From Stercorarius parasiticus (lineage: Eukaryota; Chordata; Aves; Charadriiformes; Stercorariidae), in the NCBI GenBank assembly GCA_013396915.1, contig VWZL01006771.1, forward strand, positions 2,560,653-2,624,652: 64,000 nucleotides of DNA, given 5' to 3'. Of this stretch, positions 18,772-52,178 are shown in pieces (position 1 is the first letter of the stretch; the number at the start of each line of letters is the position of its first letter). The notes beneath the pieces are model-generated. The model was not told the DNA's origin and searched no databases. It worked only from the letters and a program-made list of their open reading frames with translations. The position numbers and the translations under genes were made by a program.

Positions 18772-19053
18772 TCACTGAGGAGATTTTGGAGGGGTACTCT
18801 GTTCTTTATTTAGGCGTTTGCCAACGGCTGGAGGGGACGATCTGCGTCCTGACTGTCTCCTCTGGTCTTTGGGTTGTCCAGGATGTGACTTTGCAGGAGG
18901 AGGTTCTCTGTTTTTCTCTATTGTTTCTGTGGGCTTTCTTTCTTCTTTCCCACATGCTACAGTGTTTGGCTTCTGTTCTTTCTGGGGTTGCAATGTAGGA
19001 GGATCCTTAGTTGTTCTCTGGCAAATTTCTGCATAACTAGGTTTTCGCAGTTC
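18772..19053 (-). CDS. LARP4B: LARP4B last coding exon (C-terminus and stop)
   Basis: The acceptor gatttcacag precedes 19,053. The exon encodes [37 protein letters not shown] and the end [11 protein letters not shown], then TGA at 18,772-18,774. These blocks are diagnostic for LARP4B rather than LARP4. Confidence 0.97.
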   Translation of the reverse strand, partial: ELRKPSYAEICQRTTKDPPTLQPQKEQKPNTVACGKEERKPTETIEKNREPPPAKSHPGQPKDQRRQSGRRSSPPAVGKRLNKEQSTPPKSPQ

Positions 19054-28000: not shown

Positions 28001-31000
28001 AAACATTCATTTTAACAGGTCATATGAATTATCAAAATTAACCTTTTCACTGTATTTTCAATGATGGCTTTACTAAAAACTACTTGAAACTGAAAATACT
28101 TTATGAATAATTCTGCTGATCACATGCCATCATTCAGAATATTTCATCTGAAGACCCTAAATCATGAAACAGACAAGTTCTCAGTTTTCAGACAGTCCAT
28201 TTACATTTAGAAACAGTATATCCACTAACACTAGGAGCACTATCTGCCCTTTGGCCTCACTTAACCTTGCACTAGGTTCAACTGCACAAGTATTTTCAAG
28301 TTAGCTGGTGTTACTAAAATAAGCAGATTAAAACCCCCCTTGGCAGGTAATAAAACAGTATGTATATTGTTAAAAAATGGTTGAACTTGCCTGTTCCTGG
28401 GAGGATACTGTCTGAGTGTAGTCAATGGAGAAGCAGCAGGCTTGAAAGTTGGAGATGTGAACCCATTGATAAACCCAGTATTTGGAAACGGTGTCACCTA
28501 AAGAATATATTGCATGGTCAATTATAAACAAGCTGAGTAGTATTTTTTCTTAACACCGTATTTTATGTCATTCTATGCAGGGCAGTACTTAAATGACTGG
28601 CTCTAACAGCAATAGAGCATTTGTCCAGTGCCTTGCACCCAACTTATAAGAGCTGTTTTTTGAAAAGACAGCTACTACATATATTCAAGTTCTGATAATT
28701 TGTTAAGAGGACTGAAAAACATCGAGCCAAAATTCTTGGCTGTAAGTCAAGTAACACCGCTCCTATTTCACACCATACTATGCATGACTTCTGAGTACAG
28801 AGATACTTCTTTGTCAAAGAGCCTCTAACCTATACACCCTGTAATTGTTTTTCTTATAATTTATATGTAAATCCCTCCTAAAAAGAAAAAAAAATCAGTT
28901 CCTCATTCTACTTATCATCCACATGACACCTAAAAAAACCTAGAGAATAAGACGATGTTAAGTGGACCTCTGATTCTTTTCACATCTTGCCACCTTATTC
29001 TACATGTGAATTACTGTCTTGGTGCCTGAAGAAGCAACATTAGCAAAAGATTTTGGTTTGGGGGTGGGTGCATATCAATGCCTGTCTTATATTAATATGG
29101 TATCTCAAAATTTGAAGCATGTTTACAGTAATTTCTCCAACCTCACTAGCACTCCTTTTTTTAAATATATGAATGAGTTTCATTTAAGAAATGTTATTAT
29201 CAACAGCAAGTATTTGCTTGCCTTCTCCCCCGAAAGTAACTAAAATGCAGAACAGTGTGACTTCTATGTAGCACTCTTTCTACACTTCATTAAATTATGA
29301 GAAACAGCTGGGATTAAGATTGCTTCCTATAAAGGTATCTTTAAGCTTGTCCAACCTTTCTTGCAAAAGTTAAGGCAAACCACTAAGCAATGAAAAATAA
29401 AATTTAACACCAAAGCTGTCATGCCAAAGCACCGTTAGCCTAACCTCACACACATGACAGCAAATGCTACCTCAGACTCCAAAAATAGGCCATTAGGAGT
29501 TTAATAAAGTTATTTTAGGAACAAAGTTTCATCAAACCACTGCTCTGAAGTGCTTTCTGCTTTAATAGTTACAACTGGAACGCTGTAAAATTCAATCAAA
29601 GCTAGGTAAGCAACTATCGAACCTGAATAATGAAAAGACATTGACCATACTAAAGGAAAACAAGTTTAACTCATTGCTTAAAGGGACACCAGCAATGTTA
29701 ACTGCTTCTTTCTTTATAAGGATGGGTGACCTTTTTTTGGAGGGGAAAAAGTTATTTTCATTTTCCAGTAATACCAAAAGTAACAATTTGCTTTCTCCAC
29801 AGAAGTCATCTAGCACATAAAAAGTACACTTTTTCCTTCCTCCCTGCCCCCCCCCCCCTTTTTTGTTTATAAGCAGGACAAACTAGATCTTTCCTCAAAT
29901 ACTATTAAGTACGTGATGAAGAAGTAGGTAGTTTTTAGAATTTTGAAGACGTGTTCCCATATTCTAGTTTCTGAACTAAAACTGTATGCCCATGCTACTG
30001 GGCATATTTAAACCCAAATCACAGATGAGACAAAGCACAGTTAGTGTTTACACCGAAGCAGGAGAGAAAATTTTGTTGTATTTGCACAGAAGTCTCTACA
30101 TGCAAACTGCAACCCTGCCTCATGAAAATTATTCACGTCATTGTTCCTCGTGGTCCCTGTTCTCTTCAAGTAATTTGTACTGAAATACAGCTCTTCCTAT
30201 AAAAGGTTCAAGAAACATCATACTACATTAATGTACACAAAATGCAGCTAATCAATGACAATATACTGCAAAGCAGTGGGAAGCAAAAGCTCTGCCATTT
30301 CATTTTCTGTTCTAATTAAGAAAGGTATGAGATCTTTAATGCTGGCAAACTTGTAATGTCTTCCCCCAAAGGCCAGGACTAGTAAAGCTTTCTGGAATAC
30401 AAGAAGTTCCAGTATGACATAGCGTAGATATGCACTATGCTGTGCTTGAGCCTGTGGTCAATTGATCTACGTCTTTTACACCAGTGCTACCCAACTACTT
30501 CACTACCCCACAGCAAGACTGTGCAATAGTCAGTTTATCTAGAGGAAGAATCACATTCATCGCTGCTTAATAAGGTGTCTTTCTCCTGGAATAAAACATC
30601 ATTCACTATGCTACCTTGTCTCCTCCCCCTTAAAAGCCTTTCCCTGCAAGGGCTCTGGCTACCTTCCCTGTGTGTTTAGCACACCAACTTTTTAATTAGC
30701 TTGCTGTTCGGTACACAGGAAGTTTGCTCAAGTTTGTTCAAGGACACTTTAATCCTCTGCCAAAAAACCTCTAAAAAGCTTCTGATTTTGATCATTGCTA
30801 CCCTAGTTCCTTTTAGCCACAAGTAAAGAGGCATTTGCACAGGGCTGGGGGGGGAAGAGGTTACGTATAGGACAACCTTAGTCTCCCAGCCGTTACAGAA
30901 AACTATATTCTTATTAGCTCTTGTAGTACAACAGAGGCAGACTAGAAGGGACCAAGGTAATCCTGATGGGTCGGTCACAATGGAGGAGAAGATGAAAGCA

Positions 31001-34000
31001 GCATTAGAGGATGCAGCAGATACCCCATTAGAGTGTATAAAGACGTACTGCCACCATCCTAGCTCTAAAGCTTACTGATAAGCCCCCCTTTAAGAAGTTT
31101 TTTTTAAAAGTTAAGCAATTTAAAGTGATTTTTTTTCAATTAGCAAAAGTAATATTATTTTTAATTGCCAAAAAAGATGTTACTTTGGCACTGAAAATAT
31201 TTTGCTGTAAGAACATGCCGAGTAAGGTAATTCAGCTTGTTAACCTAGAACTTATTTTCCTGCTGGAAGATCAAGATACTAAGTTATCCTTATTTACCCG
31301 ATTCCATTAAGTTTATTCAGTACATATCAGAATTGCTTTTTTCTGGTATTCACATACATATTCTGAAGATCTAATTTCTAAAGAGGCTTTTAACCATTAC
31401 TAAAAAGAGGTCTTTGGTAAAGATTTATTTTGGTAATGATTGATTAATAATCTTTAGTAAATAACTGCCTCAAAAACTAAGAGGTTAAGAAGAGAATCCC
31501 ACTGCAGTCTGAGACCAGATGAAATTTTCAAATAATTAATCTTGCACACCATGGGAAGAATTCTGAAGAACTGTTTTTCAAGAAGAATCAGTATCTTAAA
31601 CTTCAGGACACATATGCTTCCTACACCTCAAGGCTTCATAAGAAAATAATAGCAATTTTGAAAAGACTCCAAGTGTTTCTAATCAAGAGACTTACCAATG
31701 AAGGGTCAAGGTAGCTGTGTGTGGCTGACCAGGTCTGTGGGCCAATTAAGCTGTACAACGGAAACTGCTGATGAGGACTGTATACTGGAGGTAAGTAAAA
31801 GGATGTTGTATAACGCTGCTGCGTGTAGAGGTTCATATCCAGAGGTCTATATCCATTCTTTGGCAAAAATGTGTTTATAGCTATTGCCTTTGCTTTTATT
31901 CTCGCCTGCAAAGGAGATTAGGTTATTTATTACACCAGCCTTTCAAATTAAATCAGGATGGTTCAAACTAGCAGCTCTCAAACTTTTACTGGACACTTGT
32001 CAGTCACTGCTTTTTCCTTCAAGGAAGACAGGAACAGCTGAATGCTTCCCTAGTGGCCTGATGCTGGGATGGATATACCGCTGCCAGAAAGGAGGAAAAG
32101 GATAAGTAAAATGCTACATTTCAAAACCCATCTCCAGGTCAAATGGCTGCTGAGATTGGACCACTTAAATTTATATTAGAAAACACCATGAGCCCCACAA
32201 AAACCAGAACATATACACACATATGCCCCGCAAAATCCATAAAGCTCTATTTACCTTAATTGGTTTTCCTTGGAAAGTTTTCACTTCTTCTCTAAGGTAT
32301 CTGTAAGCCTTTAAGAAAGGTAATTATAAAATTTGTCAAATATAATTTAACCAAAGGAAACTTAAATTTTGACAGGCTAAGCCTAACAATAATTCTTGAA
32401 GTGCCTGCTAATGTTAGACTATAGAAAACCCTCATATGTAATCTGCATTCGGCAAGATTTAAGTTATCATTGCAGAAGTACTTCAGTAGCGTTAAGACAA
32501 GATTTTAATTCTTACAATTGAAGCATTCCAATGTGTCATCCAAAATATCAACATTCTTAGTACAAGCAATTACAGCTTTGGCCAGGAAGCCAGGATATGC
32601 AAACAAGATAAAACTTTTACGGTGTGATGTTTAATAGTACTGATAACTGGATATTAACTAAGGGGAGGCATTACTGTTTTTAGAGGTTTGTGTACGTTTC
32701 TTTTTCATAGAATGGTTTCGGTTAGAAGGGACCTTAAAGATCACTTAGTTCTAACCCCCAAATTAAAACGTTACACATTTTAAATTACAAATTTTAAATT
32801 GTTACACATTTCTAATACAGTTTATGACCCGTCAATCCACCCTCAACCCACCCTTGTTTATTGTTATATTCTAAAATGCTTCAAAAAAAAAATAGTGTTA
32901 CCTGCTGTGCATCAGCTTCTGATTCAAATGTGATGAACCAATTGTCATTATAAGCAAACTCACAGTTGATAAACTTAGGCAAATTATCTCCTTTGAAAAG
33001 TGCTTCAACCTCCTAAGGAAAGTGGTTTTGGTAAGAAGGGGGAGGAAAAAGGTGGGAGAAAAAAAGTGGATGGACAGAAGGAAACATCAATTTAAAGTGC
33101 AGAACTCTGGAACTCCAGGTAAGAAAGATAAAAAGCACTTTCAGGCTTACAAAACAGAACTGAGAACTTCAGAACACCTGCAGTAGCCAGAGGATATCAA
33201 CAAGCAACCTGTTGACACCTCTGCCCTCAGCATTATGGAAACATTTGCAAAGCTGTAAGTATTTTAATTTAACAAGCTTCAAGGCACAGCAGTGGCATTT
33301 TCTATTCTAAGACTTACCTTCCCTCATCTCCATTTGCTGTCTATCCAAGTAGTTAAGTGCTAAGTGCATATGGATAAGCAAGCGTCCAAGAAAACTATGG
33401 TATCTCTACCAAGCGCAGCAAGGTCAGTTTTTCATCCCTCTGCAGAGCTACGGGTTTTACCACAGTCTTCCCGTGAGCAACATGCTTCTACCAAATACAT
33501 TTATGTATCCAAACACATGCAATAAACTAAGGCTGAGAAACGTTGTTAGAAGTTAATCTAACAATGTAGTAAGAAATGCGACATGCTTATTGAAATCTGG
33601 AAGAAATCTAACTTCCAAATCCTAAGGGAAAAAGCATTCTTTACTGAACAATTAAACACTTACTTCAATGGGGGTAGATTCAGGTACTTCACGTAAAATC
33701 ACGATACAGCGATTCTGATTTGGCCTAACTTTTTCTCCCTTCTCATCCACTTGGACTAAAGGCAACGCTAAGAGAGAAAAGACAAAAACGTACTTTAGCT
33801 GTCAGCAATCAGACTAGCTTTGCACACTGAAAAGATGCTGTGGATACAATTTTACAATGCAAAGCTTTTCGTGCTAAACTTAAAATATTTTTGAACATTA
33901 AGAAACAAGCAGAAAATGACTGAGGATACTTTCAGTATGAAACTGAGTAGCCATGTTACTTGAACTCTCCACACTCTTACTACTCTTGCAGCCTAGAAAA

Positions 34001-37000
34001 TCCCAAGTCATTAGCTTTTTCTTCTAAGGCACACATTGAGTCATGTTCTTTTTTGATTCTTACCTTAGTGGTAATGACCAGTAGCCTTTTCTGAGAATTT
34101 AATTCACATTATTCTTATTTAACACAGATCATTACTCAATATCTCAACTGTGAAGTAGCTTTTATAAAACTGCAGTCCTATAATTGTGATGGTCTAAACT
34201 GGAAGCTGCTTGCTCTAATGCTTTACGGAAAAAGGATGGCATTTTATTGCGATACGTAACAAAAAAAGGAAGAGACTGAAAATCTAGATTAATACTCCTA
34301 TGGCAATAACCAAAATGCTTTCTAGCACTGAGGGATTTTTACTTACATCTCAGCACTTCAACAATCAAATCCATATCAGTACTGAGTTTCTTGACATGAT
34401 CAAGATTTGCTACTGTCATTATTGGCACATACTGATCACTGTCCATCTGTGATATAAGGTACATGTCACTGGCAAGATTTTCTCTGTTGGGAGAGAAAAA
34501 AAAAGGGGGAGAATGTCACTTTTGACAATCAAGTCTTGAGACAACTCATCACATTAGAAGGCAGATTCTTACACTAAATTTTGTTTCCATCATTTTCACC
34601 AACTCCCCAGTCCATTCACCTATTTCACTTCCTATAAAATGTTTTGGGTTTTTCTTCCCCACTTCACGCAACAGTATTGGCATCTTCCTGTTCAGGCAGC
34701 ACATTACCCTCACAAACACGTGATATTGTTAGGAGTCTATTACTTCAAATGAGCACTGAATAACTGGTTATGCAAGAGTATACGGATTAGGAATTGTTCT
34801 AGGTTATTAAGGCGTGTTTAGGATGTTTTTATCTAGACACAAGCACTGAGAATAATTAAGTATAAGTAAGCTGCTTTGATAATCTTCCATCAGCCTTTAC
34901 TGGAATGCGTATGATTCAGCGCCCTTAATTTATTTTTTTCTTTTTAAAATTGATCCTTAACTTAAAATATAAAGGCATCTACGGATGCACACACAAGAAT
35001 CCCAGTTTGTATCAATGCAAATTTTAAAATTATTAGCTTAAAGAAAGTTTACCAAATGGCTTAAGCTACTCAAGCAACTCAGTTTTAACTTGCAAAAAAC
35101 CAGAAACGGTCATAAAAAAATCACCTGATCTGTAATTTCTCGTAACTACTCCATTTCAAAATGTATTTGCTAGTTTATGTTTTAGGCACAGAAGTTTCAT
35201 GTAAACTTTAAGAGGTACATCAATACAATACTCTGGATTTGTGCATTATTTCCCCCACATTCTCATCCTTTGCACTCACTTTTAAGTGACAGCTATGAAA
35301 TATATTAACTTACATCCCAAGGTAGGCACTGGGTCTTTTTAGTTATCCTCTAGTTTGCTAGGTTTAGGTATATACATACCTAGATAAGCAGAATTCCAGT
35401 GTTTTTTTCAGTAATTCTCGTAAATCTTCCTGACCTTCTGGTTGCAACTGTTCGTTTCCACCTATTAATTAAAATACTGAAGTTTAAATTCAGTTCTGCT
35501 ATATCTTAATCAAGTCATCGTGTCTATTGCTGGCTGTATAACTAGTAACAAATTTCCAAATTCAATAAACGTTCATTGTGTATTAGTTCACCACCCACCA
35601 AAATTGCACAGGACCACTGAAGACATTCAGGACTATTTAAGAGAAAAAAGAAAAATCATATCTGACTTCACTTGTTAACCTCTGTTCTCCGAGTATACAA
35701 AAACTTGAAGCAGTTTTAGAAAAGCAGCTACAAGCACATCTCAAAGTAAATACAGAACTGATTTAGCTCATGTATGTTCCAACCTTAGGATCCTAACTAA
35801 CCAATTTCTAGTTGACTAAAACCTAACTAATGCAGCTGACTAATACAGCAAGCGAGCAATGTAATGGAGGCACTTCATACTTCTGACCTCACTCTAAATT
35901 TCCAACACACTAATTCAGAAAAGAGAGTTTCAAAACTGTAGTTATGAAATATCAGCAGATATCCAATCAATTAACAAGAAATGTGTGATTAACTAACAAT
36001 CTCTTGTTAAGGAGAAATTAATTTTTTTTTCTTATACTTGGATGTTTCAACATTATCACACGGAAAACACTAATTTCATGTTTATTTCAGTTTAGACCCA
36101 ATATACTACAGTCAGTTGAGGGTAAACTAATTGTGTCAGTGGGAGAACTGTTTAAAGATCAGAAGTTTAGTGTGACTTTTAGAGATTTACAAAACATTTA
36201 GTAGCATGTTATGTAAATGTAAATTAGTTTTTTAAAAAGTATTTCACACCAACTATTACCCTCTATACCCTTCCCTTCTTCAGTAACTTTCATCCTTTTC
36301 TTCAGCTCTCCTTAACCTTTCTTCTTCCTAAAGCAACTTCTAATTTCCTCCCACCGTTTTGTCCTTCACGTGTTCTATTCTGATGCAGATAATGCAACAC
36401 CTGGAAATACACACATCATGTACTAACCACTACTTCCCTTCCCCATCTCATCTTTCCTTCTTGCCCAAAACCTAACAAAGACCAAAACTATATGTGTTTT
36501 TAAAAATAATGATTAAAAAAATAAAAATCAGATTTCAGAGTTGGGACCACCTCTGTTACTATTCATCAAGTGAAATAGATCCGACCTGCTGTTCAGCTGC
36601 TTTGCCACACTATTTGACTCATGTTAAAACTTAACTATTTTGGGCACGTAAAGGACATGCTGACAAGTTCTAACACTAAGCTGAGGAACACTGTTCCCTT
36701 CTATATTAATGATGCCTAGCACTCTAATTTCCTACTTGCCAGTTAGTTATTACTTAATATTTGCCAATAGTACCCTTAAGTAGAAGGGTCATAGAGAACT
36801 TTCAGTTTTCAACACAAGCAAGGATGATGCCACAGCTGTGATTTCAGTTGTCTTGATTTCCAACTATCATGTATGCTATACTGGTCATTTTTAATACACA
36901 TTATAAAGTCAGCTAAGCACAATGAATAAGGAGCAGACCTCTCATGAATCTCAAAAAACACCCAGCACATTTTCCTCTTTCCCATCCCTCATCTCAGTTC

Positions 37001-40000
37001 AAGTAGTAATCCTACATGCATCTTGCAGACCTTCTGCCCCTTTCAGTGAAATGTAAGCATGGCTGAATCTCTATGCTAGTTTCTAGCAGTTTCTTAAAAC
37101 ATGCCATCTGGTATAGACTACAGCTACTAAGAGTCGAACTGAAAAAAAATAGTGAGAGTTCCTTAAAAAAGAATGCGAAGAAGTCAGACTAAACTGGTTC
37201 TTATTTTAGCATTTTAAGTACAAGACTTATCTTTCAACACATTGAGATTACTACTTGAGACACAAATGGTATGTGAATTTCACCTCAGTACCTGACCCAA
37301 CCAGAAACAAGCAGTTTAGACGGGTAGATATCTAAATGTAGATGTCTACGCTAGGGACTCGCATTAAGAATAACATTTCAGAAAACAATACTCAGTTGTA
37401 TCCAGAACTTAGGATCAGCTCCGTGCAGTACCTCATAAGGCCTATACTCAAAACAGGAGGGGACTGGTTTCCAAATATGCTTAAGCCTGACAGCAAGACA
37501 CAGGATTTTCTGGAGTCTATTTCCAGAATGCATATATTGAACAAAAGTGGTGTAGTGGTTTTGTGTTTTTGTTTTGTTGTTGTTTTGCCTTTTTTTTTTT
37601 TTAAATGGATGCTCACTGTTCAACTCAAAATATGCTTTCTTTTTTTAAACCAAGCCCAAGCAAATATCAACTTTCTCTTACCTGTCTGGGTGGTTTCATG
37701 CATAGACTCATACTCAGAATGATCGAGAGCCAAAGGGTTCATATCTGTCTGGCCTGACACTGAAACAGCTGGTGACGGCTCCTGCAGCTCTGTCAGCACT
37801 GCGTTCTGATGCTTTTTGTCGCCATCACCATTGGCATCCAGTCCTGCAGCAGAGATGACGAACACATTCAAAAAGCATTCTTTCTAATCATGGTAACATC
37901 ATAGTTAAAACTAAATGTGAAGTAAAGCTGCCTACATATTTGCACTCATTTTTTAACAGGAAATTAAAATTGGGAAAGTTCTCTACTGAATTTTACCTTT
38001 TGCTTGAGCAACAGCTAGCAATTCTTATTCATACCTTCTTTACAAGAGTCTGGAGGTTGGTCAGGTATTTCTTCCCACGTTTTGCTCACGCTACCATCAG
38101 TGGCGCCACTTGCTTCCAAGTGTAACATATGATTTCCCCATACCTTTGCATTAGGATTTAACTCGGAAACCTTGGTGGACTCCTACAAAAAGAAATTTCT
38201 TTGATTACGCGCTTTGTGGATGCACAGCACACATCTGTGTGTATATATGTACAGTTTCAAGCAACAATATCAGACGTACAACTCAAGATTGTCAAATTTT
38301 TTTTCCCACTTCTGAATACATTAACTGAATAGCCATCCCATAATTGATTCAGTTACAAAAATGACTGAATTGTGCAGCACAGAATCCATTTCCCTGATTA
38401 AGAATCACCAGAAAAGGCTAGCCAAGCAGAGCAAACTACAACAAACACTTCATTCTTCACCTTTGACAGAGTAACTCAACCTGTACTTGCCCTAGACTTC
38501 AGGCAGTTCTTTAATACACGTTAACTCAATGTTGATTATATTGTTATTGTATCTGTTTCTGTGAAATAACATAAAAAAATTAAGAAGATACAAAAGCATG
38601 GGGGGGTTGGGTTGGTTTTTTTTGGACTTGCATAAAAATGTAAATGGTTTTAAGGAAGCATTATGGAAGATTTAAAGCAATGAGATGTGCATGACAACTT
38701 CTGTCATTACTTCAAGAGAAAAAACCAGAGCATTAACAAAAATTTAGGTTAGTTTTCCCCTAAAAGGAGAAAAAGAATGAATTAACAGATCCAGTCAAAT
38801 CATCTTAGGCCAATGTCCTTCAACCTGGACTGGAAATGGACACATTTAATGATCATATATGGTTATATATAACCGTTATATAAATTGTTCTATTTGTGCT
38901 TCAGAGAGATCACTCTCTGCAGTGCCAACATCTACAATACTTTTTTGGTAGTAACATGAGACAGTTTTCTCTTGTTTTGCTAATGTTTGAGCAAAATGTA
39001 TTAAGTTATTCCATACCAAGAATATCTTTGGTGTGTTTTAATATGATGATTATACTGGGAAAGAGTATTGCTCATGATAACACATACTAAAAAGCTTATT
39101 AAAATTTGTTTTGTGAATTTAAGGACGCTAGGAACATTATAGAGTTTAAGACAGGCACTTCAAAGCTCCATGAAGCTTTAATTACTCTGAAACATGCGCA
39201 CTCAGATAGTGATCATCATAGAAAAACACATCCAGAATGTAAAAAGATCTAAGGTATCTCAGCTTAAACACGCCTACTGACTGACAGAGAAAAGACTTAT
39301 TTATAATGGACATGTTTGACATAACTACTTGAATAGTAAGGATTCAAAGATGACAGCAAGTTCCACCAGCTTCCATTTTTAATACAACAGGTTTCCCTAG
39401 GGGCTAATGAACTCAGCCTCTAAGACAATCCACTGCTGGCATTGCAAGTGCTGGGCAAGGTCAGAGCAGCTACTGTAGTGCAGTCAGTGCGGAGAACAAC
39501 GCTAAGTGCTGGCTCTGCTCGGCAGGGAAGGAAGAGGAGCAAGAGCTGCCGCAGGTCGGCTTTGTCTCTTTCTTACCCCAGCTAGCCAAGATCCAGTCTA
39601 GCTCATTCCCCACACTTCTCCTGCAGCCACTTCTTTCTACAGCACTTCAGAAGATCATCTCCAGAAGTGAGCAAAAGGTTTCCTAATTGCTACCAAGCAA
39701 GAACTGTAAGAATTTCAGGAAATCCACAAACATTTCTTCCCATACGAAGGTAAAGAGCACTATTAACAGTCTGTAGAAAGTTACCTTTCCACATACTGAA
39801 GTGTTCATCTCAAGTTCACCTAGAATTGAGAATCTACAATCAAGATACTTTGCCCAATGTTTAAGTTTTCACACAAGGTAAACAGAACCAGAAAGAAAAA
39901 AAAAAAAACAATGTTCAGCAACATTTTGAACTACTACATTCTCTATAGCATTCGGATTTGCTAAAGAAAGAGAACGGTCAGTTCAGGCCAAAAAAACATA

Positions 40001-43000
40001 TGAGATGTTTAACTGTCTAATGAAACCACAGTTTGACTTGGCTTATTCCAATTCCTAGCTTCAGCATTAAGCTTTAACATCAAATCACGTCCGCAGAATA
40101 CTTACAAATTCGTCTTTATCTTGCCATCCCCAAGTACCAACATTTTCTGCTGCCAGCAGCTGATATGGGTATCTTTCCACTGCATATGAAGCACCTGTTA
40201 CATCTTCAGGTTCATTTCGCAAGTTTTCACTAACTACACATAGTCTGTCGTTCTTCATGGTATTGTTAGAAATTGTATTATTCCATAAAAAGCCCATCAG
40301 ATATTCACCATTACCAGCAGGAACGGTGTCAGAAAATTGCTGATTTGTCCAATCAGCATTGCCACTCTGAAGACTGATGAAGTGTGACCATATTTCAACT
40401 TGGGGGTTTTGTCTGTCCAGTTCATAAGAGTGCTCTGGGTCACTGGATACGTCTTCCATCAGATCTAACGCACACCGCTCACTGCCTCGCCGAAATCCTG
40501 CGGCACCAGGAGAGGCACTCTGTATTTCGTAGGAAGGAGTAGCTGCGTATTTGTCTACCTGCTTTGGGTCAACAAAAACTCCAAGCTCTTTGTTTGAGAA
40601 AATCTTGTGATCTGACTGCATCTGTTCCCAACTTGTGGTCAAGTCATTCATTTGAGTATTTAATATGTAACTGGTGTTTTTCAGTTCAGTACTCTCGGCT
40701 TCTAACTGCTTTAAATTCCCCGTGGTAAAAGCTTCTAGATTCCCAGTTGACATACTAAAACCAGTGAGGTTCTCCTCCTTTGAGTGGACACTGAAACACT
40801 GTTTTACTTCACCATCCTGAAGATTACATTCATTTACATCACACACACTTTTTTCACGAGTTTCTGCTTCTACTTCAGTAAAACGCCCAACAGAAACTTG
40901 GGTGTTCCCGACCTCTGGCTCTGGACTGGTACAGTGACATAACTTAGGCTCTTCCACTGGTTTATCACGCACATGAGAATATGAATTTTGACACAATGAA
41001 GGTAAACAATTATGGGCTTTATGTAAGAGATTACTGGCATCTTCCAGATTTTTAGCGTCAGTTATCAATTTAACGCTCTTGTGCATACCACTGTCCAAAG
41101 CTACAGGTACAGGGGAGTTAGAGTAAGTATTCTGATCGTGAGTCAAGCCTTTATTGAAATTTAAAATGTTTTTATCACAATCAACAATGTTTGCATCCAA
41201 ATTCTCTTTTACTTTTTCTGCCTTTTTATCAATTGTTTCATTTAGGTGAACTTCAAATTTTGTCTGTTTTACAGATTCTGCAACATCCCCAGCTGTTTTA
41301 GCTGAGTCTGCCCCTGCATTCCATTGATCTTCCACTGTGTGGAAGGAACATACTTCCTGTTGCTCATCTTGTCTACAGTTCACATCCATTTTATTCATAT
41401 CCTCATGTTCCACAGACACAGAAGAGACACTGTTTTTGTTATCTGAATTTGAATATTTGCACACTTTATTTTCTGGTGACTCTTGTGAAATATGAGATTC
41501 TAGGCTGCTTTCCTTTAGGAACATTTCATCTGCGCTTGTGTTATGTAGTTCATGAGATGTCAAAGTGCCATCACTTACCCATGATCGAGTTCTGCTCAAG
41601 CTATCAGCTTCCTCAAGCATGTTGTCTTTTAGCTCAATGCTACTCACAGAGACATCTTCCTCCATGCCACTATGGTTTGCAACTTCAGTCGACATCTTGT
41701 TTTCAGTGCAACCCTTAATTTGAGTTGGAAAATCAGAACCTTCTTCCCACTTTTCGCACATTTCAGTTATATTCAAAGCTTCACAGCTACGCAAAACTGT
41801 ACCTGTGCATTTCTCTTTATCTTTCAAGAACTCTTCCGTAACACTGTGATGTTCACTAGGGTCAGGTGCAATTGTTTGTCTATCATCATACGTTCTTTGA
41901 AATGTTCTCTTTTCCACCCTTGAGTTTACTTCACTTTCTGGCTTTAGGAAGCAGCCTTCTTCAGCAGGTTTTTCTACATGTTGACTCTTCAAAAAAGAAT
42001 CACGTAACTCTAATGATAATTTAAAGTTACCACTCACATTCTCTTCCCCCTGTTTAGTATTTAATTCCCTTACACTTGAGGGATGCCTACTTGAACCAAA
42101 TGGTACAATCTCAGAATCATGACTTCCTTCAATTTGTCCTGAATTACATACTCCAGTGTTTAACAATACACTGGAAACACAATCACTGTGTTTCATGTTT
42201 TCTGAATTAGGGCTGCATCGGTCCTCTTCAGCAGCATCCGCAAATTTGACAGAATCACAAGGTCTATGGAGTGATTCATTCCAACTGACAGCATTACCTA
42301 TGGTATATACCTCCTCCTGTTGATTCTCAGGGACAACTTCATTGTTTACTTTCGCTCTTAAGCCATTTGTTACTGTATTGTCAGCATTTAACCTATGCAC
42401 CTCACACCTGTTAGCCAGTAAGTTATCATAAGAAGATTGTCTGTCTATGCTACAATATTCCTTTGTTTCCTTTTTCTGCATGTTTGATCTATCCTCTTTT
42501 TTATGCTCAAACAGTTCTTCCTGTGAATTAAACTTAGCTTGTGCCGATTGCTGCATTGGAAATTCCTCCCCTGTGTCTAGAGGTCGTGCCATGCTGCACA
42601 TTCCTTCATCAGTAACAGCTGAGTTATCTACGTCTGCCGCAGTCTCTTCACACACAGTAGCTGGCACCTCTTCATCCCCTTTCAGATCTTCAGCATCTAC
42701 AACACAAATACTGTAAAACTCCCTATCCTTTGTATTTTGTCTGTTGTCTACATCAAGATAGGAAAATGTTGGAGACATCTCTCTATGTGAACTTGAAACT
42801 TTTTGTAGGCTGTCACTCTTGCCATCTTCAGCGCTTACTGTTGTTTCATTCTGCCTTGAATGGTCACATGTAACTGCATAATCCTCCAGAAAATTTCTAT
42901 TTAAGGAAATTTCACCCTGTAAGCCTTTGTCTAGGATGTCTGGTACTTGTGAAGTAGAAATACAATCAAACAAGCAGTGCTCTTCTGCAGCTACATTTTC

Positions 43001-46000
43001 ATTATTAATATTACTATTTTCTGTATTGTTCATGTGCTGACCATTACTATCAGATTTTTTAGGTGCTCTTTTTTTAATAACCCTATCTTTCTTTTCTTCA
43101 CTTTTCTGCAGATTTCCATACGTACCAGAGACCTTTAGGAGGTGACTAAAGGAATTAAAGAAGCTAAAAGGTCTGTCATACGTTCTCCTAGAGCTCTCAC
43201 AGGGAGTATTCTCCATGCTTTTGTATGACGGATATTTTGCTTTTTTAGCCCAGAACCCAGATTCAGAATTTGATGGTGCGCAATCATTGCTGTGAACATG
43301 TTCAACGCCGACTATCACAGCTGCCCCATTAACCGTCCTTCCCACTGTATGCTGATCCTGGCTTTTCACGGTTCCTAAAATTGAAGATAAAGTTTTACTT
43401 ATCCTTGACGCTGGTGCTTCCTCTTCCACAGATTTTTGTAACAAGCTGGTTTTCTCCTCATTCGTGCTGTTACTCAATTCTTTACTGAAGCAGCAGCCCA
43501 TGTTTAGTAGCGTCAGAGGAGTCTTCTCACGGCAAATCACCTTCCTCTATACACCAAACTAATTTTCTACTGCTACTGAGGAGACAAGCCAACACCCAGC
43601 TGCCAAAAATAGCACACTTAAAAACCATGCAGGGGTTCATATGTCATTGCCACTCAAAGTCCAAATCCCAGTTGCTGAGCAATGTTTCAGTATTTCATCA
43701 TATGCACTGTAATATTCAAGCCAAATAATTCTCCTAATGAGATTACAGTCTGTTTACAAGTATTACCAAGTCTTATGAACTTCCATTGTTTAATTTCCTG
43801 AAGAGTTTCCTTCATCCAAATCATTAAAATATTTAAATGACATCTTTCACAACGTCCATGTGTGCCAAAAAACTGCCTGCCTTCAGATTTAATACAACTC
43901 TGGCTTTCTATACAAGGATAAACGCGGTCTGGCTTCACACGTTTAAATCTGATTCGAAAAACTAAACCAGTGGAAGCTATCAGGATCAAACTTTTTGGAC
44001 TGTTTTCTCCTCCTCCTCCCTTCCCCCAGAGCTGAACCTACACCAAGATTACTTCTTTAGGAAAAACAGGCTAAAGATAGATAAGACCTCATGTATTCCA
44101 TTGAACAGTCACTGTACGTTATCAGAAGCTAATTCTGTTCCAAGCCTTTTTTTATTCGCTATCTGCATGAAAAAAAAAAATACATAATACCTCAGTGACT
44201 TACAAGCACTGCAACGGGCCTCACGATCATCTAGCCATCTCATGGTAGTGTGGCAGGATTAATTATAATTAACCGCTCAAAAATGTATGTATTCTTTAAC
44301 AAAAAAAAAAACTCAAATGGATTTAACAGGTAGTTTGACTAAATGCTACTTCTTCCATGAGTCTGTCTCCAGAATAAGCTTTCTTTGTTGTAGGTAAACA
44401 GATTTATTTCAGACCTTATAGTAGCTAGAGCATCTTTATACACATGTATTTACATATTGGAAGACTTCTACTACTGTAAGTCCCTTTACTTGCTAAAAAA
44501 AGTGCTTGTTTCTTCAAAAATAAAAAACCAATAAAAGAGCCAAAAGTATCCAGCAACCTTTTCTGCTCTAAACAGAGTTGTTCTTATTTGCCTTTACACA
44601 ACCTTACATCACTCAGACCTCCTCTCAAATCCATTGCTGTTATTTCAAATCTGGACCCCATCCTTCAGAGAGCTCACAGACTGTACCACTACAGCACCAC
44701 CACTCTGTTACTGAAAAGATGCTGAAAACACAGAAGAAAGTAAGAAGAGACAGACCCTTAAACTGTATTTCAAATGCTCTTTCAGCTGTACATTGAACTG
44801 AATGCTATTTTTCAATTGGTTGTGCACCTAATGTCCAGTTTTATCACGATGTACTTGACAGTTTTAAGTTAGCCTGGCAACTTGCCTTCATTGTATTCAT
44901 ATAGCAGTATAGAGGGGTACTAAGGCTAATTAAAGCAGTTGCCTTTCAACTAACTAGTAAGAGATCTATTTTAATTTCTACTGTAAACCATGCTTGCAGG
45001 GTAAAGGCTGCTTAACATACAGAGATCCATGCTCTGATATTCCACTATCGTTATTTTTTTTTTGCATGATTATCATTGTGACTTATTTTAAAGCTGCTTT
45101 CATGGCAAGTCACATAGTCTACATAAGGCTTAATATATGATTCAGACTTATCTATGTTGTCTATATGGTCCCTGTCACTGCCACACTGCAAAACTTCTGC
45201 TTGATTTCCAAAATTCTAAGAAAAAAATTCAGTCTTTACCAGAGAAGCCCACAGTCACCTATTCCTTTCAATCTCCTTCACTTACTTCACTTGTGACAGA
45301 AAATTTACTACTGTCAACATAGAAATAAATTAAGCATCAGTTCCTCTTTTACTTATTCATATCTAGTTGGTAAATTAAGTTAACATCTGTTTAGACTCAT
45401 GAACCAAAGAAGAAGCAAACATTTTTTTGTTTTCTGTTGTCACCTGAAGATTGAGTAAAAAAACAATGCTGCACTGAACCACAGGAAGCAGAACAAGGCT
45501 GGATTAAAATCAGGTAGAAGAGAATGTGAAAAAAAGCTCGTGCTATCCCAAACTGTCCACAATCTTATGATAATAACTTGCAAGTACAAGGTAGTACTGA
45601 ACAAGTGCAGAAGCACTCTAGAAATTCAGGTATTTCAACTTCAGTCTGCACTGCAGTCACTATGAAGCGGTCCTGCAGTAGTAACAGTAGAGTTCACATT
45701 TGACAGCATAAAACAGACTAGAAGTGAATGTCTCCTCCTTATACAGTGTGAAATGCTTCTATTCTCTTCTCTGAAGCTTTTGCAAGGTACTCGAATATTT
45801 ACTTTGAGTCATTTCTTATCCTACTACTTTTTATAAATACGCTATGTAACACAAAAAAAAGAGCAACGCTGTAATATAGTTGCCAATGTAGCTTTTTCAC
45901 CCCAGACAAGTATTCTGCTCATAAGACAAATAAATCACAAAAAAAATAATGCGCTTTAGACTCTTAAACACAGGTTATCATATACTGAAATGTCATATAA

Positions 46001-49000
46001 ATTCAAGTGCCATAGGCAGACTCAGATTTGTATACACGAAAGAACCTTATTGGCTAACTTTCAGGAGAAGCCTCCTATTCACCACCAATCCTCTGACCAT
46101 AAAAAAAAAAGATAGCTGAACTGACAAGGGAATGCATTCCCTCCTCGGCAAGTCTGCTTTGAAACTGCCAAGTAAGAAAAGAGGAAGACTACCCTGCCTT
46201 TCCCCCAGCTTATCCAAGATGTGAAGCCTCAAAGTGCCTGCAGATATATTGTTCTTAAGGATAGGAAGCCTGATGCATCATTGCTGCCATCTGCTGCATT
46301 TTTTTTAATTCTCCCATGAGACGAAGTTATTCAACATGCTTGGATCCAGACTTAAAACTATGCCAAGTCACTCCTCTCTTTAGCATTCCCTGGAACCAAG
46401 AACACGGAAAGGGGGAGGGGGTTACTGATAATAGGTTTTTTTTGAAGGCCACAGGCAAACAATTCAGCTGTTTTTAATGTCAGCATAAAGTCACAGTACT
46501 ACTTGCAAACCTACAACTATTCAGAGAACTCCCTCATCAGGTAAACAAATCACAAGATTTTTCCTTCTGTGATTTAACCATTACTAACTACGTGCCTTCT
46601 AGAGAGGAACTAAGTGCCTTTAAGAGACAGACCAGGGCAAAGTCCACTTTTCCAGTGCCTTAACAAGCACTTCTGCTATCACCTAATGGGGAGAAAATGG
46701 GTGAAGCAGTTCAGGCAAGTAGAAACTTCTTCCAGTTTTCCCATGCCCTTGTCCTTAGTGCAAAGGCACATTTTGTACTTGTTCCTTTGGTTTTATCTAA
46801 GAGTTCCAGGGATAACTTCTATTTTTAAGCACCTATAGTGCACATTCATTAAGTCACATTTCTCAATACCATTTATTGTGGGATCACCATTAAAAAACCA
46901 ACAGTAACACAAATTTAAGCAGAAAACACCACACTGTTGTTATGCTACATCACCTGAGGTTGGCCGTTTAACTTTCAAGACTCAGTAAGTCTTAAAAACC
47001 TCCTGGCTAAGCTAAACACCACCACCTGACTTGAAAAGCACTTCAACAAAATTTGTGCTCTGTTACTTCAGAGCCCAGCTCAGCTGGGGGGTGGCTTTTA
47101 TTTATTTTGTTTTTTTTCCTTTATATATTTTGGCTGTGCTCTAGTACTCATCTACTCAATAGGTTTTCCCTCTCCATGAAACAAAACTGCTCTGAAGCAG
47201 CACTTTCATAACCTGAACAATTTTTTTTTTTAGTAAGTATTTTAGTCCTATGTCCTGTGCACACCTACGCAGAAGGCAAGAAGTCAACATGCTTATTAAG
47301 AGGAGTATCCCTCCCCATCTACTTTCATTTCTACATGTACCTATTCCTTGTCAAGGAATAAGGGTTTATCTTATAGACCTAAGTTTGAAAATATAGTCTA
47401 GCTTTAAAGTTACAATAGCACAAGTTGAAACAGTCCTTAAAATCTTCTGACATCTAACTTCATTTATCCTTTTCCTGTGATGAAGCCATGCAATCATAAC
47501 TAGTCCTGAAGAAACAGTGATTATCCTGCACTCCCAGGCCATACCTGATGCTATGCCCACTGCTAGGTAACATTAAAGAAAAGAGCAGCATCATTCCTGC
47601 AGGTTTTTGGAAACAGCTGATCAGATTGCTTAACTTTCCCTCCAATATATACAGGTTAAATGGACTGTTAAGAGTTTAAATACACATTTTACATATTAAA
47701 GCAATGAAATATTAGCATTAGAAATCAACTGCAGGTGCAGAACTATTCAGCACTTTTCTTACAGTCTAAATGTACAATAATGTCACAGAAAGAGCCAACA
47801 CCAAGCAGTACTGATCCTTCATGATGCTGATACCGTGCATGTTCAGTTTAAGGACTAATCCTCCCATCTCTCATTTAAAGCTATTCACGATCTCTTGAAT
47901 TATTAAATATCACCTACATGTTACACAAACTGCTACTTCACTCTTAATTAGCACATACTGCGTGTAATACCGCGTATTGTCAAATGATCTGAGGATTATA
48001 TGCTATACTGAATTTTCACTAAACTGTTACACAGGGTCCCATATTAAACTAGTAAATCTGATTTCCTCAGTCCCTTTTTATTCTATGAGACTTATTCTTG
48101 AATGGGTTGCAAAAGATTTTTGAACAACATAAGCTAGCAACTCTAAGCCCGAGACATTCTTCCATATTACTTTCTATGAAAAACATTTTAGGAAGTACAA
48201 TTAAATCCCATGTTAAATTTTCAGACTTGCTAGCTATTTTTCTTGTGCTTAGAATCGACAATATGATTGAACTTGTATTTACAGTACCTATAAGCACTGA
48301 CAAAAACCAGCATACCACATCGGTTTGAATGGCCATTAACAGAAGCCCATGGCAGCACCTGATAATTATTCAACCAGAGAGAGAATGGGGGATGCTCCTA
48401 TTGCCATCAGTCAGCAAGTTCAAACAGCCCCATGGTAATATCCTCCACCACAACACACCAACTTTCACAGAACCTGTTGCTGCTTGATGGCAAGAATCCC
48501 TTATGAAGGCAATTTCAAATTTCTAGATCAAGTCTTGGATTCAGCCAATCAAGGAAAAATTCTTTGGTCCTTGGAAAGCGCTCTGAGACGCCACATATTC
48601 AAATGTGGGTCCTTGGAAAGCGCTCTGAGACGCCACATATTCAAATGTGGGCATGTCAGGGGAAGAGTTTAGGAAGAGCAAGGAGAAAGACTGTGCCTTT
48701 AGCACTAAAGGTTAGTTAAGTCCTGTCTGGCAGACACAGGTCACATAAGCTACCTCCACCATGGGATTTGGGTCTTGGTCTCTTCCCTTGGAGAATAATC
48801 TTGAATTTCTAGCAGCACAGTGTTACTGATTGAAAAGGAAACACAAGTGAGTCAAAGGGAGTGAAACATTTCTTACGCACTGACTTTCCTGGGTCCAGTC
48901 TGACAAGGGCTTTCTCAGAAACAGTAATTGTCATCAGAATGCAAAAAGAAAAATAATCCAATGATAGATGTCACCTGAAGTGACAAAGCCCACCTCTAAA

Positions 49001-52000: not shown

Positions 52001-52124
52001 TTTCATGCAACACAACAGGGGAATATGTAATCATAGTACTTACTAGATGAGAACCGTCTTTAACTTCTTGTACTTGCTGCACCTGCGGTTCAGCCACAAC
52101 TTTAGTGTCCTGATCAGAAGTCAT
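18772..52124 (-). CDS. LARP4B: LARP4B, La-related protein 4B (whole coding span, 16 exons, canonical isoform)
   Basis: The gene encodes a cytoplasmic mRNA-binding protein of the La-related family. Family members bind poly(A)-binding protein and 3' UTR sequences and support mRNA stability and translation. Joining the 16 coding exons listed below (total 2,181 nt with stop) gives 726 residues, close to the human length of about 738. Domains in order: PAM2w motif at residues 35-42 (LNPNAKVW), La motif at about 141-220 (includes [19 protein letters not shown]), RRM at about 224-298 (starts RCIVILRE), then a low-complexity tail ending STPPKSPQ. The tail block [12 protein letters not shown] separates LARP4B from LARP4, which has KLSYAEVCQ there. 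All exon phases agree and all junctions are GT-AG except one GC-AG. The ATG at 52,122-52,124 gives MTSDQD, matching the known start, although its Kozak context is weak (C at -3, A at +4). The identification is very secure; exon edges are inferred from consensus and phase. Confidence 0.97.
19054..19594 (-). other. LARP4B: LARP4B intron between coding exons 15 and 16
   Basis: GTAAGT donor and ttcacag acceptor; no other feature seen. Confidence 0.93.
19595..19706 (-). CDS. LARP4B: LARP4B coding exon 15
   Basis: This 112-nt exon has the acceptor gaatccttacag and donor GCCATA then GTAAGTGA, phase 2 to phase 0. It encodes [20 protein letters not shown] and [11 protein letters not shown], the latter identical to human. 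Confidence 0.95.
19707..20377 (-). other. LARP4B: LARP4B intron between coding exons 14 and 15
   Basis: GTAAGC donor and cttacag acceptor; no other feature seen. Confidence 0.92.
20378..20502 (-). CDS. LARP4B: LARP4B coding exon 14
   Basis: This 125-nt exon has the acceptor tttcctccttcag and donor TCTGA then GTAAGCAC, phase 0 to phase 2. It encodes [20 protein letters not shown] through [11 protein letters not shown]. It is the least conserved exon relative to human but keeps DAS, REP and ERSPSP in order. Confidence 0.9.
20503..23047 (-). other. LARP4B: LARP4B intron between coding exons 13 and 14
   Basis: GTGAGT donor and ccttcag acceptor. Contains the CR1 copy at 21,560-22,103. Confidence 0.92.
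21560..22103 (+). mobile_element. CR1 LINE 3' end with intact tail
   Basis: The copy runs from caaggccccacctcgagtac to the terminal attctatgattctat in plus orientation, opposite to LARP4B, in the intron between coding exons 14 and 13. It still codes in part for the CR1 ORF2 C-terminus (for example [29 protein letters not shown]). It is less eroded than the other copies, so probably younger. Confidence 0.95.
23048..23212 (-). CDS. LARP4B: LARP4B coding exon 13
   Basis: This 165-nt exon (55 codons) has the acceptor ctattccag and donor AAAGA then GTGAGTAA. It encodes a proline-rich run ([20 protein letters not shown]) then [20 protein letters not shown]. It begins RGQ where human has SSQ, so the acceptor could be a few bases off, but only this choice keeps the frame. 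Confidence 0.95.
23213..26080 (-). other. LARP4B: LARP4B intron between coding exons 12 and 13
   Basis: GTGAGT donor and attccag acceptor. AT-rich, with short A and T runs and nothing else recognised. Confidence 0.92.
26081..26126 (-). CDS. LARP4B: LARP4B coding exon 12
   Basis: This 46-nt exon has the acceptor tttcccttag and donor TTTACA then GTGAGTGT, phase 2 to phase 0. It encodes [15 protein letters not shown], matching human KNSFGYRKKREEKFT. Confidence 0.95.
26127..27618 (-). other. LARP4B: LARP4B intron between coding exons 11 and 12
   Basis: GTGAGT donor and cccttag acceptor. A T-rich low-complexity tract lies near 27,060-27,100. Confidence 0.92.
27619..27873 (-). CDS. LARP4B: LARP4B coding exon 11
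   Basis: This 255-nt exon has the acceptor tttgtag and donor GAGGAAG then GTGAGTGT, phase 2 to phase 2. It encodes [39 protein letters not shown] and a basic stretch ending GLGRGR. It is a low-complexity Arg/Ser-rich region of the C-terminal half. Confidence 0.96.
27874..28390 (-). other. LARP4B: LARP4B GC-AG intron between coding exons 10 and 11
   Basis: The intron starts GCAAGT instead of GTAAGT and ends tttgtag. It is 517 nt long with no other feature. Confidence 0.92.
28391..28497 (-). CDS. LARP4B: LARP4B coding exon 10, ending at a GC donor
   Basis: This 107-nt exon encodes [20 protein letters not shown] through LRQYPPRN. The donor reads AACAG then GCAAGT, a GC-AG type splice site: joining at this point gives AG+G (Arg) and continues NPSKSH exactly as in human LARP4B. 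No GT donor nearby keeps the frame and the conserved residues. Phase 0 to phase 2. Confidence 0.94.
28498..31695 (-). other. LARP4B: LARP4B intron between coding exons 9 and 10
   Basis: GTAAGT donor and ttctttag acceptor. Contains a C/T homopolymer junction near 29,850 and no recognised repeat or gene. Confidence 0.92.
31696..31905 (-). CDS. LARP4B: LARP4B coding exon 9
   Basis: This 210-nt exon (70 codons) has the acceptor ctcctttgcag and donor CATTG then GTAAGTCT. It encodes [20 protein letters not shown], then a Tyr/Pro/Gln-rich segment ([17 protein letters not shown]) ending SYLDPSL. It follows the RRM and is conserved with human. Confidence 0.97.
32255..32308 (-). CDS. LARP4B: LARP4B coding exon 8 (RRM end)
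   Basis: This 54-nt exon (18 codons) has the acceptor ctttcttaaag and donor ATTAAG then GTAAATAG. It encodes [18 protein letters not shown], the last RRM helix and strand. Human has AYKYLREEV, a conservative K to R change. Confidence 0.96.
32309..32901 (-). other. LARP4B: LARP4B intron between coding exons 7 and 8
   Basis: GTAACA donor and cttaaag acceptor. Contains the CR1 tail remnant. The neighbouring intron 31,906-32,254 is 349 nt and featureless. Confidence 0.92.
32705..32760 (-). mobile_element. Short CR1 3' tail remnant
   Basis: tcatagaatggtttcggtta followed by gaagggaccttaaagatcac is the inverted 3' terminus of a CR1 element, cut short at about 56 bp. It lies in the intron between coding exons 8 and 7. 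Confidence 0.8.
32902..33012 (-). CDS. LARP4B: LARP4B coding exon 7 (RRM core)
   Basis: This 111-nt exon (37 codons) has the acceptor ccttag and donor CAGCAG then GTAACACT. It encodes [20 protein letters not shown], then [14 protein letters not shown], the central RRM strands and helix. It is nearly identical to the human segment. Confidence 0.97.
33013..33663 (-). other. LARP4B: LARP4B intron between coding exons 6 and 7
   Basis: GTAAGTG donor and ccttag acceptor; nothing else seen. The next intron (33,768-34,346) is similar. Confidence 0.92.
33664..33767 (-). CDS. LARP4B: LARP4B coding exon 6 (La motif to RRM junction)
   Basis: This 104-nt exon has the acceptor ttctctcttag and donor ATTGAA then GTAAGTG, phase 1 to phase 0. 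It encodes [15 protein letters not shown], the end of the La motif, then [16 protein letters not shown], the first RRM strand and helix. Confidence 0.96.
34347..34483 (-). CDS. LARP4B: LARP4B coding exon 5 (La motif core)
   Basis: This 137-nt exon has the acceptor tctcccaacag and donor TGAGAT then GTAAGTAA, phase 2 to phase 1. It encodes [20 protein letters not shown] and continues through [11 protein letters not shown] to DLIVEVLR. These are the hallmark winged-helix residues of the La motif. Confidence 0.97.
34484..35379 (-). other. LARP4B: LARP4B intron between coding exons 4 and 5
   Basis: GTATGT donor and cccaacag acceptor; nothing else seen. Confidence 0.92.
35380..35461 (-). CDS. LARP4B: LARP4B coding exon 4 (start of La motif)
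   Basis: This 82-nt exon has the acceptor aattaatag and donor TCTAG then GTATGTAT, phase 1 to phase 2. It encodes [17 protein letters not shown] followed by KKTLEFCLS, the first helix of the La motif. Confidence 0.95.
35462..37681 (-). other. LARP4B: LARP4B intron between coding exons 3 and 4
   Basis: GTAAGA donor and attaatag acceptor. The short open frames near 37,342-37,722 are antisense or intronic and unconvincing. The intron at 37,844-38,034 is only 191 nt. Confidence 0.9.
37682..37843 (-). CDS. LARP4B: LARP4B coding exon 3
   Basis: This 162-nt exon has the acceptor ctgctgcag and donor ACAG then GTAAGAGA, phase 1 to phase 1. It encodes the acidic linker [16 protein letters not shown] through [13 protein letters not shown], aligned with the human segment beginning SDANGDGDQ. 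The linker lies between PAM2w and the La motif and has no recognisable fold. Confidence 0.95.
38035..38182 (-). CDS. LARP4B: LARP4B coding exon 2 (PAM2w exon)
   Basis: The acceptor is tttttgtag before 38,182 (phase 0) and the donor is GAAG then GTATGAAT (phase 1). It reads [16 protein letters not shown] and onward. LNPNAKVW is the PAM2w form of the PABP-binding motif, with Trp in place of the usual Phe, as known in LARP4-type proteins. Both the canonical exon 1 and the giant exon join it in frame. Confidence 0.95.
38183..40105 (-). other. LARP4B: Intron between the giant exon and the PAM2w exon
   Basis: GTAAGTATT donor at the end of the giant exon and tttttgtag acceptor at 38,183, both phase 0. 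A slightly GC-richer patch lies at about 39,420-39,610; no coding segment was identified in it. Confidence 0.75.
40106..43501 (-). CDS. Giant 1,132-codon open exon beginning MGCC, probable alternative N-terminus of LARP4B
   Basis: This is one uninterrupted reading frame of 3,396 nt in AT-rich DNA where chance frames close within tens of codons, so it is certainly coding or very recently coding. The start is the first ATG after a good splice acceptor, in a good context (AAACATGG), with an in-frame TAG at 43,547-43,549. Residues 1-4 are MGCC, fitting N-myristoylation at Gly2 and palmitoylation at Cys3 and Cys4. Residues 16-21 (EKTSLL) form an acidic dileucine signal, and 137-149 are a basic cluster. 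The body is rich in Ser, Glu and Asn, without membrane segments, and probably disordered. The last 120 residues are richer in Trp (1038, 1051, 1073, 1124, 1126). It ends DKDEF at a consensus donor (TTT then GTAAGTATT) in phase 0, matching the acceptor of the PAM2w exon at 38,182. I do not recognise the protein family. It could instead be a nested gene, but the splice-compatible end favours a LARP4B isoform of about 1,831 residues. Confidence 0.9.
43502..43575 (-). other. Candidate 5' UTR and splice acceptor of the giant exon
   Basis: On the minus strand a pyrimidine-rich stretch ending in ctcctcag precedes position 43,575, which would be the first base of the exon. The 74 nt to the MGCC start contain several stops and no upstream ATG. 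If coding exon 1 (phase-0 end at 52,044) were spliced here, the first codon read would be TAG. An alternative is that a transcript starts in this region, but no TATA box or CpG island is evident. Confidence 0.55.
48566..48651. repeat. Perfect 42-bp tandem duplication
   Basis: A unit beginning ggtccttggaaagcgctctg and ending caaatgtgg is repeated twice with no mismatch. Each unit contains a short inverted repeat (CCACAT, attcaa, ATGTGG). It lies in the intron between coding exon 1 and the giant exon. Confidence 0.95.
50105..50364 (+). mobile_element. CR1 LINE 3' fragment
   Basis: Plus-oriented CR1 3' end, including gagcactggaacaggctgcc, caaatgatctccagaggtcc and the tail ccctatgattcta. It sits in the intron upstream of the giant exon, opposite to LARP4B. 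Confidence 0.92.
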
Positions 52125-52178
52125 GAGCTGTCTGCTTTTTGGCTGCTCAGAGAGAACTTTACTGGTCACCTTTGTAAG
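52044..52178 (-). CDS. LARP4B: LARP4B coding exon 1 (start codon exon)
   Basis: The acceptor is cctgtttccgcag before 52,178 and the donor is CTA followed by GTAAGT. The coding part is 52,044-52,124, 27 codons from MTSDQD to GSHL, closely matching the human N-terminus. The 54 nt of 5' UTR in this exon (52,125-52,178) are in frame and free of stops, so an upstream in-frame extension cannot be excluded from the sequence alone. It ends in phase 0, the same phase as the giant exon. Confidence 0.93.

Follow-up and report, generated by a model that had tools for sequence, protein, structure and literature searches.

A conserved alternative first coding exon of LARP4B and a predicted lipid-anchored form of the protein

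The window analysed here is a 64,000-nucleotide stretch of the Stercorarius parasiticus genome (assembly GCA_013396915.1, contig VWZL01006771.1, positions 2,560,653 to 2,624,652 of the forward strand), and all coordinates below are window positions. LARP4B and all of the exons listed lie on its minus strand. An earlier examination made from the letters alone, here called the sequence-only reading, noticed an open frame of 1,132 codons in a LARP4B intron and proposed that it gives the protein an alternative N-terminus. The frame, its borders and the exons following it are:

43501-40106, minus strand: alternative first coding exon, 3,396 nt or 1,132 codons, stop-free from ATG to phase-0 donor
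43547-43549, minus strand: in-frame stop TAG upstream of the exon's ATG
40100-40105, minus strand: exon donor GTAAGT (border TTT/GTAAGT, phase 0; last exon base 40106)
38035-38182, minus strand: PAM2w exon, in frame after exon 1, from an identity match to the gull protein P0001 and from assembly
18772-37843, minus strand: remaining 14 LARP4B coding exons (La motif, RRM region, C-terminus), with the stop at 18772

The frame is on the same strand as LARP4B, as had been proposed, and the five remaining frames contain 33-149 stops across the same interval. The stop-to-stop run holding the exon is 1,153 codons long and opens at 43546. The longest open runs in 20 random 64-kb sequences with the dinucleotide frequencies of the window were 121-201 codons, and a chance open frame was therefore rejected. 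The ATG at 43501, described as well placed in the sequence-only reading, has the context AACATGG and follows the in-frame TAG. The exon at 38182 is preceded by TTTTTGTAG and continues the frame from 40106 in phase 0, bearing out the proposed consensus donor and in-frame PAM2w exon.

Assembly with GT/GC-AG borders required at each junction gave a long form of 16 coding exons, from 43501-40106 to 19053-18772, whose exons are 88-100% identical to P0001. It encodes exactly 1,831 residues, the length that had been given as approximate. That product had been expected to keep PAM2w, La motif and RRM intact. The first two parts hold: the PAM2w motif with its tryptophan (LNPNAKVW) is encoded in 38182-38035, and the La motif, which gave PF05383 at E 7.3e-17 in P0001, lies in window exons that are in frame and 94-97% identical there. 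For the RRM, the exons of the region are present and collinear, and Pfam at E 0.1 on homologues reported the La domain alone. The match tables also carry a precomputed PF26088 tag.

To find relatives of the exon we used three protein searches, which returned 180, 78 and 131 overlapping matches; those listed represent 202 different proteins. These models are predictions, are not independent of one another, and include several per species. Predicted LARP4B isoforms containing the exon (NCBI, UniRef and other sources) were found in many birds, turtles, platypus, echidna, marsupials and placentals, and exon-only models in crocodile and lizards and among 'lgn' records, so that the frame has stayed open in birds, turtles, crocodilians, squamates and mammals alike. 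The exons of Larus and Alca are 92% identical to that of the window. Identity falls to 43-45% for turtles and crocodilians, to 26-29% for squamates, to 25-27% for monotremes and one marsupial, and to 19-22% for placental-type sequences. Judged by these identities, the exon evolves fast but stays open. No amphibian or fish relatives were present among the best 120 of the 131 profile-search matches.

The PAM2w segment is present in 128 of the 202 proteins, and 109 of these 128 join it exactly at the end of the exon. Another 15, for example P0077 from Larus michahellis, join it at a donor inside the exon, and four join it elsewhere (P0104, P0112, P0168 and P0186):

41577-41578, minus strand: in-exon donor TCATGG/GTAAGTG after codon 641 (41579/41578), phase 0, leaving a head of 641 residues

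In a chicken X5 model (P0078) this donor position (after LW) is combined with a downstream in-exon acceptor, and residues 649-847 of P0065 are missing. Of the 74 models without PAM2w, 65 read through the end of the exon into Val-Ser, consistent with a donor GTnAGy; the nine without Val-Ser were sorted by eye (P0002, P0091, P0111, P0119, P0136, P0164, P0193, P0198 and P0199). Beyond Val-Ser, the sequence and the position of the stop differ among birds, turtles, squamates and mammals. A constant Val-Ser followed by a variable tail is taken to mean that the splice donor is conserved and the intron beyond it unconstrained. With the frame conserved in birds, reptiles and mammals and most joins at its end, the interval 43501-40106 is almost certainly a coding alternative exon of LARP4B, as the sequence-only reading had it. 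That reading also knew of no described form of such size. In the literature this stands, as no description of the LARP4B long form was found in the portions of open-licence text searched. It does not extend to databases: the long form is predicted in many species, and thus appears new only as a printed description.

The most telling feature of the exon was absent from the sequence-only reading. It is a conserved start of the form MGCC...ExxxLL, which lies among the following elements:

43376-43501, minus strand: codons 1-42, the exon's most conserved segment (10-residue blocks of 4.10, 3.72 and 3.62 bits in 64 sequences)
43484-43501, minus strand: codons 1-6, MGCCFS, predicted from sequence pattern as a site of N-myristoylation (G2) and palmitoylation (C3, C4)
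43439-43456, minus strand: codons 16-21, EKTSLL, acidic di-leucine [DE]xxxLL, found in 184 of 185 MGCC-starting proteins
43485-43486, minus strand: possible in-exon acceptor TGCTGCTTCAG/T, whose use would remove MGCCFS
42692-42721, minus strand: codons 261-270, conserved internal block, tying with the third N-terminal block (3.62 bits)
40106-40306, minus strand: codons 1066-1132, conserved C-terminal blocks (per-block conservation, 64 sequences)

Conservation was measured in an alignment of the window exon with 63 of the 202 proteins, chosen as exon-only or monotreme and marsupial forms, a choice that omitted sequences varying at residue 6. In these 64 sequences 11 of 1,132 positions are invariant, namely M1, G2, C3, C4, F5, S6, E16, L20, L21, S35 and D269; the first nine make up the MGCCFS start and the acidic di-leucine. 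When all 202 proteins were inspected, 185 had the MGCC start within their first 40 residues. The remaining 17 begin elsewhere, and in none is MGCC replaced in place: P0007 starts from residue 14, two bat models (P0122 and P0124) carry a different sequence ahead of residue 7, and the stretch is missing from 14. The E-x-x-x-L-L motif begins at residue 13-16 in 184 of the 185, the exception (P0081) being without about residues 10-42. Given this pattern, the N-terminus of the long form is probably lipid-anchored.

Within codons 261-270, F262, Y263, S264, I265 and C266 are each conserved in at least 90% of the 64 sequences, beside the invariant D269. Pfam gave no match above cut-off in the window exon, in P0097, P0118, P0137 or P0178, or in the exon part of P0001 and P0116, and no PDB sequence matched the exon at E 1. 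AlphaFold2, run on the 64 sequences, gave a mean predicted local distance difference test score (pLDDT) of 36.9, with no elements listed and no confident structure. A folded domain in the exon is therefore not supported. The prediction suggests that the exon is mostly disordered over some 1,090 residues, and the low confidence would fit a long flexible tether.

The long form differs from canonical LARP4B at its N-terminus. Canonical LARP4B is a cytoplasmic translation factor, 738 residues long in human, with a described PAM2w motif (passages of PMC7356810), and its CLIP (crosslinking and immunoprecipitation) targets correlate with cytosolic mRNAs (passages of PMC11146010). It is a product of the same gene and shares the 15 downstream exons with PAM2w, La motif and C-terminus, but starts with MTSDQ and has a head of 27 residues here, as against 1,132, without a lipid-type start. 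In the window its first exon was located through a match to the start of the bat model P0124 (E 3.9e-10):

52044-52178, minus strand: canonical first coding exon, start MTSDQ at 52124, phase-0 donor, borders from sequence

Ending in phase 0, this exon too can be spliced in frame to the PAM2w exon. The middle exon of P0124 was not found in the window. When canonical exon 1 was joined directly to each of 17 candidate acceptors upstream of the ATG (YAG with at least 14 of 18 pyrimidines), a stop was met before MGCC in all 17, and a direct join to the acceptor within codon 6 gave an immediate stop. Translation starting at MGCC is therefore the simplest route to the long protein here. The predicted isoforms P0001 (Larus michahellis, 1,797 aa), P0114 (platypus, 1,741 aa) and P0134 (donkey, 1,715 aa) have the same exon and join; such NCBI and UniRef isoforms are orthologues of the window form, do not differ from it in kind, and exist as annotation only.

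A start of the same type is known in LAMTOR1 (p18/Pdro), the membrane anchor of Ragulator. In LAMTOR1, Gly2 is myristoylated, Cys3 and Cys4 are palmitoylated, D/EXXXLL lies at 17-22, and the protein is found at late endosomes and lysosomes (passages of PMC2882324 and PMC6454084); its N-myristoylation is also reported in a part of PMC4200515. The LAMTOR1 start sequence was checked against PDB chains. The di-leucine at 17-22 compares with 16-21 in the LARP4B exon, but LAMTOR1 has 161 residues and no RNA-binding part. By analogy, the exon start may work as the LAMTOR1 signal does, the likeness being one of signal only. When residues 1-50 were searched against the PDB, all seven matches were to the glycoprotein hormone alpha chain (MGCCFSRAY...) over the first 36 residues, with a best E of 0.015, and were taken as chance.

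We lean, with some reserve, towards an interpretation in which the alternative first exon yields a lipid-anchored, membrane-tethered LARP4B, most likely at late endosomes or lysosomes; for that location taken by itself the chances are somewhat short of even. Transcription would start at a promoter in the intron upstream of 43,501, and translation would begin at MGCC. Myristoylation of G2 and palmitoylation of C3 and C4 would anchor the product, and the di-leucine E16-L20-L21 would sort it to an endomembrane, most likely that of the late endosome or lysosome. The product would consist, in order, of the membrane anchor, a tether of about 1,090 residues that is probably disordered, and normal LARP4B, which would bind PABPC1 through PAM2w and A/U-rich mRNA through the La module. 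The long form would thus hold poly(A) messenger ribonucleoprotein particles (mRNPs) at the membrane, with the short canonical form acting in the cytosol. Length of the tether and presence of the anchor would be adjusted through use of the in-exon donor and the possible in-exon acceptor.

A parallel exists in Ustilago maydis, the organism of Upa1 and Rrm4. Upa1 is a PAM2-bearing protein that links Pab1-bound mRNA to endosomes (passages of PMC9249222). It has a FYVE domain and relies on its partner Rrm4 as RNA binder, whereas the LARP4B long form would unite anchor, PAM2w and RNA binding; the parallel is between PAM2 proteins at endosomes, and no homology is claimed. Given the cytosolic targets of canonical LARP4B and a fungal PAM2 adaptor on endosomes, an anchored LARP4B would make sense as a counterpart. 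More tentatively still, amniotes might possess a second LARP4B that serves as a one-piece tether between mRNPs and late endosomes or lysosomes, so that A/U-rich mRNAs would be translated or protected at a nutrient-signalling membrane, with promoter choice switching between cytosolic and membrane forms. If the anchored form is real, short-form constructs and localisation data describe one of two proteins, the other being more than twice as long and present in amniotes. A lipid-anchored protein binding both poly(A)-binding protein and mRNA would then offer vertebrate cells a concrete means of keeping mRNPs at a membrane.

Several observations weigh against this interpretation. The long-form models in databases are predictions, and no CpG island surrounds the exon's ATG (from -500 to +100, G+C is 0.39 and CpG observed/expected 0.41). 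No human protein was named among the matches, although these are clusters with other members unlisted, and the orangutan model P0191 (Pongo pygmaeus) is without the part matching gelada residues 504-809, a gap suggesting that the exon may be damaged or decaying in apes. Residue 6 is Ser in 178 of the 185 MGCC-starting proteins, Gly in three, Arg in three and Cys in one, and Arg at this position is not favoured by the PROSITE myristoylation pattern PS00008. Di-leucine motifs work mainly in transmembrane proteins. Two bat models, P0122 and P0124, look as if they had been spliced at the in-exon acceptor, which could account for part of the conservation of MGCCFS. The string GCCFSKE was not found in the literature searched, and LARP4 does not occur in the main text of the human N-myristoylome study PMC4200515. 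LAMTOR1 has a second di-leucine at 49-54, whereas the only other one in the LARP4B exon is at 821, and LAMTOR1 was absent from the PDB matches of residues 1-50. When MGCC was kept fixed, the similarity score to LAMTOR1 was reached by 10 of 1,000 shuffles for the window sequence and 157 of 1,000 for turtle P0098; without residues 1-6 the counts were 71 and 410 of 1,000. Profile comparison of the exon start with LAMTOR1 by hhalign gave a probability of 45%. Shared descent with LAMTOR1 is therefore not supported.

The lack of support for such descent also bears on the destination. The same exon and lipid anchor might instead take the protein to the plasma membrane, the Golgi or a synaptic or ciliary membrane, with E16, L20 and L21 serving otherwise, for example in a short helix. 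Dual acylation alone often targets proteins to the plasma membrane and Golgi, and the third block of the exon is nearly as conserved as the di-leucine block (3.62 versus 3.72 bits). However, the exact [DE]xxxLL spacing is kept in nearly every MGCC-starting model, as in LAMTOR1, and we consider a destination of this kind unlikely, while giving it some weight.

The bat models suggest another origin for the constant start, in which the exon is internal and alternative, its MGCCFS codons are conserved mainly as a 3′ splice site, and the product carries no lipid. A branch-like CTACTAAAC is found shortly before the ATG and ahead of TGCTGCTTCAG/T. However, M1, G2, C3 and C4 would not stay fixed for splicing, and, judging from the codons, four of the 185 models have lost the AG, namely those with Gly (three) or Cys (one) at residue 6. 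The direct join from canonical exon 1 runs at once into a stop in the window, and E16, L20 and L21 would be left unexplained. This explanation appears improbable.

It is also quite improbable that the long transcript is rare or tissue-restricted (in the germ line, for example) and regulatory, diverting promoter output from the canonical form and yielding little protein. The gap in orangutan, with possible decay in apes, and the silence of the literature portions searched would fit such a role, but the length of the frame, some 900-1,150 codons, and a start that stays the same in birds, reptiles and mammals together point to a translated product. Least likely of all is a separate gene within the intron, with its own stop (TGA at 40085-40087) and poly(A) site: in UniRef, and in some models of NCBI, an 'uncharacterized protein' does end in the intron, most of the bird read-through tail and its stop are common to the group (16 proteins end VSI[LF]xx-stop, an agreement that may reflect recent common descent), and the intron contains six weaker hexamers resembling poly(A) signals, but no AATAAA occurs there, the conserved stop and poly(A) site expected of such a gene were not found across birds, turtles, squamates and mammals, and the joins at the exon end speak for LARP4B.

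Some further observations concern the remainder of the gene. A GC-AG intron (CAG/GCAAGT at 28391) precedes exon 27873-27619, which apparently has two 3′ splice sites about 39 residues apart, at 27873 in the assembled form and at about 27757 in Larus P0001. A perfect two-copy tandem repeat of 42 bp lies at 48566-48651 within a LARP4B intron. Downstream of the end of LARP4B, in window positions 1-5000, G+C rises to 0.48-0.55, perhaps marking the start region of a neighbouring gene.

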